Origin: Geoalkalibacter halelectricus
Lineage (GTDB): Bacteria > Desulfobacterota > Desulfuromonadia > Desulfuromonadales > Geoalkalibacteraceae
Assembly (NCBI RefSeq): GCF_025263685.1
Contig: NZ_CP092109.1
Location: forward strand, 3,659,001 to 3,723,000
Reading direction: 5' to 3'
Length of the DNA stretch: 64,000 bases
The number at the start of each line of letters is the position of its first letter. Positions within the stretch are counted from its first letter, which is position 1. Position numbers and translations under genes: made by a program. Below, piece by piece: positions 38,085 through 38,484 of the stretch. The notes under the pieces are model-generated. The model saw nothing but the letters and a program-made list of their open reading frames with translations. It was not told the DNA's origin and made no database searches.

Positions 38085-38249
38085 AAGCCCGTCAGTTGGA
38101 AATGGATCGCGACACCCAAGGCCCGAGAGCCGATCATCGCGGCCGAGTGCGCAAAGTCGCAAGAATCCCAAGTAGTTTACGGCACGAAGAGTTTACGGGC
38201 AAGTCAGGTGCGAGGCAAGGCGGTTTGTCTCTGTCTCTGGGCTTCGGGC

Positions 38250-38398
38250 GCGGGGGGGGGTGACCAGAAACCGCCCCCCCCCCCGGGGGGGGTGGGGGGG
38301 CCCGGGGCCCCCCGGGGGGGGGGGTGGGTTGGGGGGGGGGGGCGGGGGCCCCCCCCCCCCCCCCCCCCCCCCCCCCCCCCCCCCCCCCCCCCCCCCCC
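38250..38398. other. Low-complexity G/C tract at a probable false join
   Basis: About 150 bases of almost only G and C runs, ending with 50 consecutive C (38349-38398), interrupted only by TGACCAGAAACC and a few T. Left of it is GC-rich chromosomal sequence upstream of the DUF2868 gene; right of it is a plasmid origin. Such alternating homopolymers are typical of failed sequencing or forced scaffolding, not of natural DNA. Confidence 0.85.
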
Positions 38399-38462
38399 TG
38401 ATTATGCGTGGATAACTTCTTGAATTAACAGGGTTTTCCACAAAGGGGGTCTGATTATGCGT
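38398..38462. other. Part of a plasmid replication origin: iteron-like repeats and DnaA-like boxes
   Basis: CTGATTATGCGT occurs at 38398-38409 and 38451-38462, 53 bases apart. Between them lie GTGGATAAC (38408-38416, complement of a DnaA box) and TTTTCCACA (38434-38442), in an AT-richer stretch. This is the composition of an iteron origin next to a rep gene. The array is probably cut off by the G/C tract on its left. Confidence 0.6.
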
Positions 38463-38484
38463 AAGGTTGGCGGATCTCCAGGCA

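Follow-up and report, generated by a model that had tools for sequence, protein, structure and literature searches.

The single contig that represents the genome of Geoalkalibacter halelectricus (4,125,859 bases) contains a place where chromosomal genes give way to a conjugative plasmid backbone across a tract of G and C homopolymers. The question raised by this locus is whether the two sides are neighbours in the organism, as they would be if a plasmid had integrated there, or whether they were brought together during assembly. A sequence-only reading had called the join a probable chimera. We analysed the window, a stretch of 64,000 nucleotides (contig bases 3,659,001–3,723,000), and other parts of the contig. 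The window numbering is carried on as ext coordinates into the directly following contig stretches (contig position = ext + 3,659,000); positions below follow the window unless marked as contig or ext. We put the probability at about 95% that the tract is assembly filler and not sequence of the organism, and that it joins two contig ends that do not belong together. The features are collected in Table 1.

Table 1. Features on either side of the join, in window coordinates.
Feature	Position	Strand	Basis
DUF2868 protein, 519 aa, last chromosomal gene left of the join	36525–38084	-	Pfam PF11067, 2.4e-53; 64–69% identical orthologues in three congeners
Chromosomal intergenic flank	38085–38247	.	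alignment to the intergenic region of G003; the far side of that region corresponds to contig 3,159,575–3,159,660
G/C filler tract (very likely a false join)	38248–38398	.	position, runs, G+C, shuffles
50-C run abutting the truncated iteron	38349–38398	.	sequence
Putative origin half of the plasmid, with one truncated and one full iteron	38399–38462	+	18-mer recurrence; alignment to the Marinobacter pelagius origin
repA, RepA_C-family replication initiator	38523–39710	-	Pfam PF04796, 2.6e-21
trb mating-pair formation genes trbB, trbD, trbE/virB4, trbL, trbF, trbG, trbH, trbI	40344–51049	+	alignment to annotated genes of NZ_CP083945.1
Small tyrosine recombinase, 206 aa, inside the plasmid, away from the junction	52377–52997	+	Pfam PF00589 (Phage_integrase), 6.5e-37
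ArdC-N/zincin-like domain protein (antirestriction or primase type)	53544–56705	-	Pfam PF08401, PF18818
Plasmid topoisomerase	58674–60857	-	Pfam PF01131
T4SS coupling protein (TraG/TraD type)	61428–63317	-	Pfam PF02534, PF12696
C-terminal part of a TraI/MobA(P)-type relaxase	63314–64000, gene runs on to contig 3,724,233	-	ORF; part beyond the window ~39% identical to TraI/MobA(P) relaxases

Homopolymer tracts in the contig

A tract ending in 50 C had been reported at this place, and it is there: 149 bases (38250–38398), of which the final 50 are all C. Before the 50-C run come G runs of 9, 11 and 12 bases and one C run of 11 bases, and G+C content reaches 93% over 38252–38398. Such a tract is far beyond chance: when the window minus the tract was dinucleotide-shuffled 100 times, the longest run of G or C was 16 (mean 9.4). 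In the window itself, the longest run within positions 1–38000 is 9.

A search of the whole contig returned 30 starts of C or G runs of at least 11 (17 forward, 13 reverse). These fall into 15 clusters, around which 373,860 bases were inspected; 12 hold several runs of at least 7, and three consist of a single run of 11–14. One cluster sits at the very start of the contig (37–112), and two runs of 111 C each occupy contig 4,121,896–4,122,118. Two other tracts bear on the present locus. The first (contig 3159482–3159562) stands directly left of genes at contig 3,159,627–3,168,483. The other (contig 3761537–3761613), which opens with a run of 16 A, marks the point where a second segment, found to the right of the plasmid, meets an enoyl-CoA hydratase gene. 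In clusters where G as well as C forms runs of at least 7, the first run is G and the last C (five of five); the remaining 10 of the 15 contain one kind of run only, and when single bases are compared, neither G nor C clearly comes first in several clusters. By eye, the tracts that were printed show no common unit or flank.

One of these tracts indicates how such filler should be read. At contig 1096817–1096860, it separates two minus-strand frames that, judged from their domains and order, appear to make up a single P-type ATPase gene, with the E1-E2 ATPase and hydrolase domains to its left and the metal-binding and HMA domains to its right. Here the filler seems to bridge a gap between true neighbours. 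A gene interrupted in this way would be mis-annotated as two. Since this tract looks like a true adjacency, filler alone is no proof of a false join; we rejected any rule to that effect, and each tract needs its own test. With 15 run clusters in a single contig, the contig order needs checking at each of them.

It might be argued that the poly-G/poly-C tract is genuine, perhaps a hypervariable homopolymer or an element that forms G-quadruplexes, given that the tracts are G/C-rich, that several lie between genes and that the three clusters with single runs could be natural. We regard this as scarcely credible. C runs that reach 111 bases, a tract at the contig start, the interruption of the P-type ATPase gene and the lack of a common unit or flank among the printed tracts all speak against it, and it would leave unexplained why both sides of the tract at 38250–38398 have better neighbours elsewhere (see below). 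The tract is an artefact and not a biological feature.

Neighbours of the two flanks

The genes examined to the left of the tract encode the DUF2868 protein, a member of the aldehyde ferredoxin oxidoreductase family and an aldehyde dehydrogenase. A DUF2868 match was present in 13 of the 40 genomes searched, this genome included. The upstream side of the gene was taken from seven of the 12 others, and more than 1 kb of it was present in five of those seven. In the congener G003, the orthologue (1345729–1347279 of a 1.39-Mb contig, C1) is preceded, across an intergenic gap of 0.24 kb, by orthologues of the genes at contig 3168483–3159627. In the present assembly these genes are 538 kb away, immediately right of the filler tract at contig 3159482–3159562. 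Only G003, among the five genomes with more than 1 kb, has neighbours that correspond to the 3,159.6-kb region; the other four have different ones. In none of the five did the upstream frames have their best listed match in the plasmid or in the enoyl-CoA hydratase segment, in a comparison (E 1e-12, >80 bits) against selected stretches of this genome only.

The intergenic sequence of G003 was compared with the four candidate flanks. Its local alignment to 38085–38245 scored 54, modestly above 200 shuffles (maximum 49; z 4.4), and its alignment to contig 3159575–3159660 also scored 54 (shuffle maximum 42). No such alignment was seen for the assembled right flank (38399–38560), which scored 30 against a shuffle mean of 28.7, or for the flank beyond the second tract, which scored 22 against a mean of 25.9, and the G003 intergenic region has no counterpart of the junction sequence. 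Gene order weighs more here than the left intergenic score. The synteny of one congener, together with the intergenic sequence, thus supports a position at about contig 3,159,573 as the better partner of the left flank.

Near this position, a piece of about 1.7 kb (contig 3157820–3159562) is enclosed between two run clusters. By eye, its right end resembles the 5' end of a group II intron. Group II introns are typical repeats at which contigs break.

The right flank begins abruptly. Position 38399 falls inside an iteron and reads TGATTATGCGT, and a full iteron, GGGGGTCTGATTATGCGT, follows at 38445–38462. The same 18-mer recurs at contig 3,729,745–3,729,762 (L004:6745–6762), so that iterons occur both at 38399–38462 and at about contig 3,729,745–3,729,786. 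The earlier description of a plasmid that starts at its origin was correct in this sense, the window holding one putative half of that origin.

A contig of Marinobacter pelagius (NZ_QNRO01000030.1) carries in one piece the trb genes, repA, a set of four iterons, a gene of the ArdB type, kfrA and a tra block; some of the tra and ard names are provisional. The two plasmid ends are adjacent in this contig, which is a draft record. Among four loci of the RepA scan, it alone shares the backbone appreciably beyond RepA. The Marinobacter origin matched 38399–38480 with a z of 13.7 and ext 70600–70765 with a z of 36.6; for ext 70766–70930, which comes next in the assembly, the score was 39 against a shuffle maximum of 49 (z 2.0). 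These comparisons support a position at about contig 3,729,762, where the other half of the split origin appears to lie, as the better partner of the right flank. The two origin halves are 32.4 kb apart in the assembly and most likely belong together, as the ends of one circular plasmid opened in its repeats. Judged from its sequence, the region from 38399 to about contig 3,729,762 very probably represents a conjugative plasmid ("plasmid A"), a circle of about 32.4 kb that was cut within its origin and attached to the chromosome. It runs past the window edge and ends 32.4 kb right of the tract.

We also considered whether all 64 kb from the first filler tract to the second form a single plasmid. 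Against this stand the completion of the origin at about 3,729.76 kb and a change of composition near there, and we dropped the reading. The first and last 4 kb of the block gave no overlap match better than E 0.57.

Each flank therefore has a better-supported neighbour elsewhere in the contig, the left one at 3,159.6 kb (from one congener) and the right one at about 3,729.76 kb, and it is on this ground that we regard the join as false. The proposal of a chimeric join is thereby strengthened, and we agree that linkage across 38250 should be discarded.

That the plasmid is truly integrated here, as an integrated plasmid or an ICE of which only a short, hard-to-read stretch at the left end was badly filled, would fit the intergenic position of the site, the filler tract at an apparent true adjacency inside the P-type ATPase gene and the presence of a tyrosine recombinase gene. 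This last point qualifies the earlier statement that the join lacks an integrase-att structure or a duplication: no att-like repeat was found, but a gene of the Phage_integrase family does exist inside the plasmid (Table 1). It lies about 14 kb from the edge; among the ORFs scanned, the edge genes are repA and an antirestriction gene at contig 3,728.8–3,729.2 kb, and neither is a recombinase. Five plus-strand comparisons, drawn from the left flank, the start of the insert, the end of plasmid A, the end of the insert and the right flank, contained no exact direct repeat longer than 10 bases. Plasmid A's own two ends, a pair outside these five, share an 18-base direct repeat (38445–38462 and contig 3,729,745–3,729,762). 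This repeat could be misread as att sites; however, it is the origin iteron, of which the unbroken Marinobacter origin has four copies. ARAGORN detected no tRNA in the window. Furthermore, the left flank would be expected to resume at the far end of an integrated element. In G003 it adjoins the counterpart of 3,159.6 kb, where a DUF4198 gene lies, instead of that of the enoyl-CoA hydratase gene at 3,761.6 kb. The continuation on the DUF4198 side expected from G003 is found not at the insert end but at the filler tract 538 kb off. Direct repeats, tRNA genes and recombinase position all came out against an integrated element, which we consider very improbable.

Plasmid A and the segment behind it

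The genes right of the tract agree with the conjugative plasmid backbone proposed before: a RepA_C replication initiator, trb genes, a T4SS coupling protein, a topoisomerase and a relaxase. Other genes of plasmid A, partly past the window, encode a KfrA-like protein, an antirestriction protein and a NikA-like accessory protein. An initiator is thus found with origin iterons, and a relaxase with a coupling protein and mating-pair formation genes. From this gene content, plasmid A is very probably of the MPF_T type, with a MOBP-type relaxase and RepA_C replication. The ORF at 52979–53506 looks by eye like a lysophospholipid acyltransferase and is a possible cargo gene. A search of the whole genome for ParB gave one match, far from this locus.

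Plasmid A has no near DNA relative among 72,556 plasmid records: a search with 38400–62000 matched 43 of them, and the best-ranked match covers 2%. At the protein level, RepA shares 79.8% identity with a Salmonella plasmid sequence across 71% of the RepA length, and 69% (best segment, residues 1–384) with the first-listed locus of the RepA contig scan. TrbE is 93% identical to its counterpart in the Marinobacter pelagius contig and less than 60% identical in each of at least 5000 plasmid records counted. Of 57 other related genomes, one gave a TrbE match of near full length (47% identity), and three gave weak partial matches.

A comparison of tetranucleotide profiles, which the sequence-only reading had suggested as a check, separates the plasmid from its surroundings. 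Its two halves correlate at 0.74 with each other and at 0.33–0.50 with 11 other chunks of the genome; those chunks, not all of which are proven chromosome, correlate at 0.62–0.91 among themselves. The segment after plasmid A (ext 71000–102500) resembles the chunks, with correlations of 0.62–0.88. Plasmid A looks foreign to this lineage, whether acquired or a contaminant.

The join could accordingly be false and the plasmid derive from a gammaproteobacterium that contaminated the culture or the library. The 93% identity of TrbE to that of Marinobacter pelagius, set against its low identity in the plasmid records counted, its near absence from related genomes and the unlike tetranucleotide profile would all suit such an origin. 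However, the genome is reported as 100% complete with 0.1% contamination, a measure likely blind to plasmids, and broad-host-range plasmids are often compositionally foreign to their hosts. We consider contamination unlikely, although it deserves more weight than integration or a genuine homopolymer. For a resident plasmid we see about even odds: the excised sequence of about 32.4 kb would then be a conjugative plasmid of this organism, from a group without close match in the plasmid collection, which shares its backbone with Marinobacter and would reflect recent transfer between distant classes, with a host-like segment carrying an F-type transfer system glued behind it.

At contig 3,729,762–3,729,910, plasmid A passes into this second segment within the iteron array and without a long homopolymer; a degraded iteron comes next, and the tetranucleotide profile changes. 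This is probably a second false join. Between contig 3,737,051 and 3,761,431, the second segment carries an F-type transfer system (TraC_F_IV, 835 aa) and an actin-like protein, and relatives of its TraC occur at E 0.001 in eight of 57 other related genomes. It also encodes a short TrfA-family replication protein, next to which TCGGTCGGTCATAAGTCGATAG-like units are repeated in an array. Near both ends of the segment, at ext 70911–70961 and ext 102406–102456, 51 bases from the start region of the TrfA-family gene form an inverted repeat with 96% identity. A comparison of L005:1–18500, from the second segment, with the plasmid collection returned one trivial DNA match.

On the other side of the tract at contig 3761537–3761613 follows a 127-kb segment (contig 3761613–3889113). 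In another congener (G002, contig C104), orthologues of its right end adjoin those of its left end; this segment may therefore be a circular replicon or a misplaced contig.

Origin of the join and known counterparts

The most probable course of events would involve two contig ends. One would belong to a chromosomal contig that breaks off in the intergenic sequence following the DUF2868 gene, the other to the circular conjugative plasmid, linearised inside its repeated origin iterons. In the cell, the plasmid would exist as a free circle. The filler between the two ends may stem from low-quality read tails, G-rich when read outward, or from an automatic gap filler. The order of G first and C last hints weakly at contig ends extended outward with G-rich read tails. 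The ultimate cause may be the dark-cycle poly-G of two-colour Illumina chemistry.

A user who takes the genome as one closed chromosome would infer that a conjugative element is integrated at this locus, and would be misled about synteny and gene neighbourhoods. The case also illustrates that a false join can be exposed from sequence alone, by way of a better partner for each flank.

Compared with chimeric contigs known from scaffolding and gap filling, the arrangement here is alike in having filler between contig ends, unrelated flanks and better neighbours elsewhere. It differs in nothing of kind; the filler in this case consists of long G/C runs that recur through a one-contig genome. As for the plasmid, Aeromonas hydrophila CSUSB2 plasmid NZ_CP083945.1 (MPF_T, 68.8 kb, circular) has a similar RepA (76% identity across 72% of the protein), and its trb genes likewise form a block close to repA. 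Its trb proteins are only 32–58% identical to those of plasmid A, over 14.9 kb compared, and it is typed as non-mobilizable by MOB-suite. The contig of Marinobacter pelagius 114J (37,084 bp), of which 21,176 bases of draft sequence were compared, differs in RepA (66–69% identity) and in its unbroken iteron array, whereas the order of its backbone across the origin, from trb, repA, the four iterons, the ArdB-type gene and kfrA through the tra block to the relaxase and coupling protein, is like that of plasmid A.
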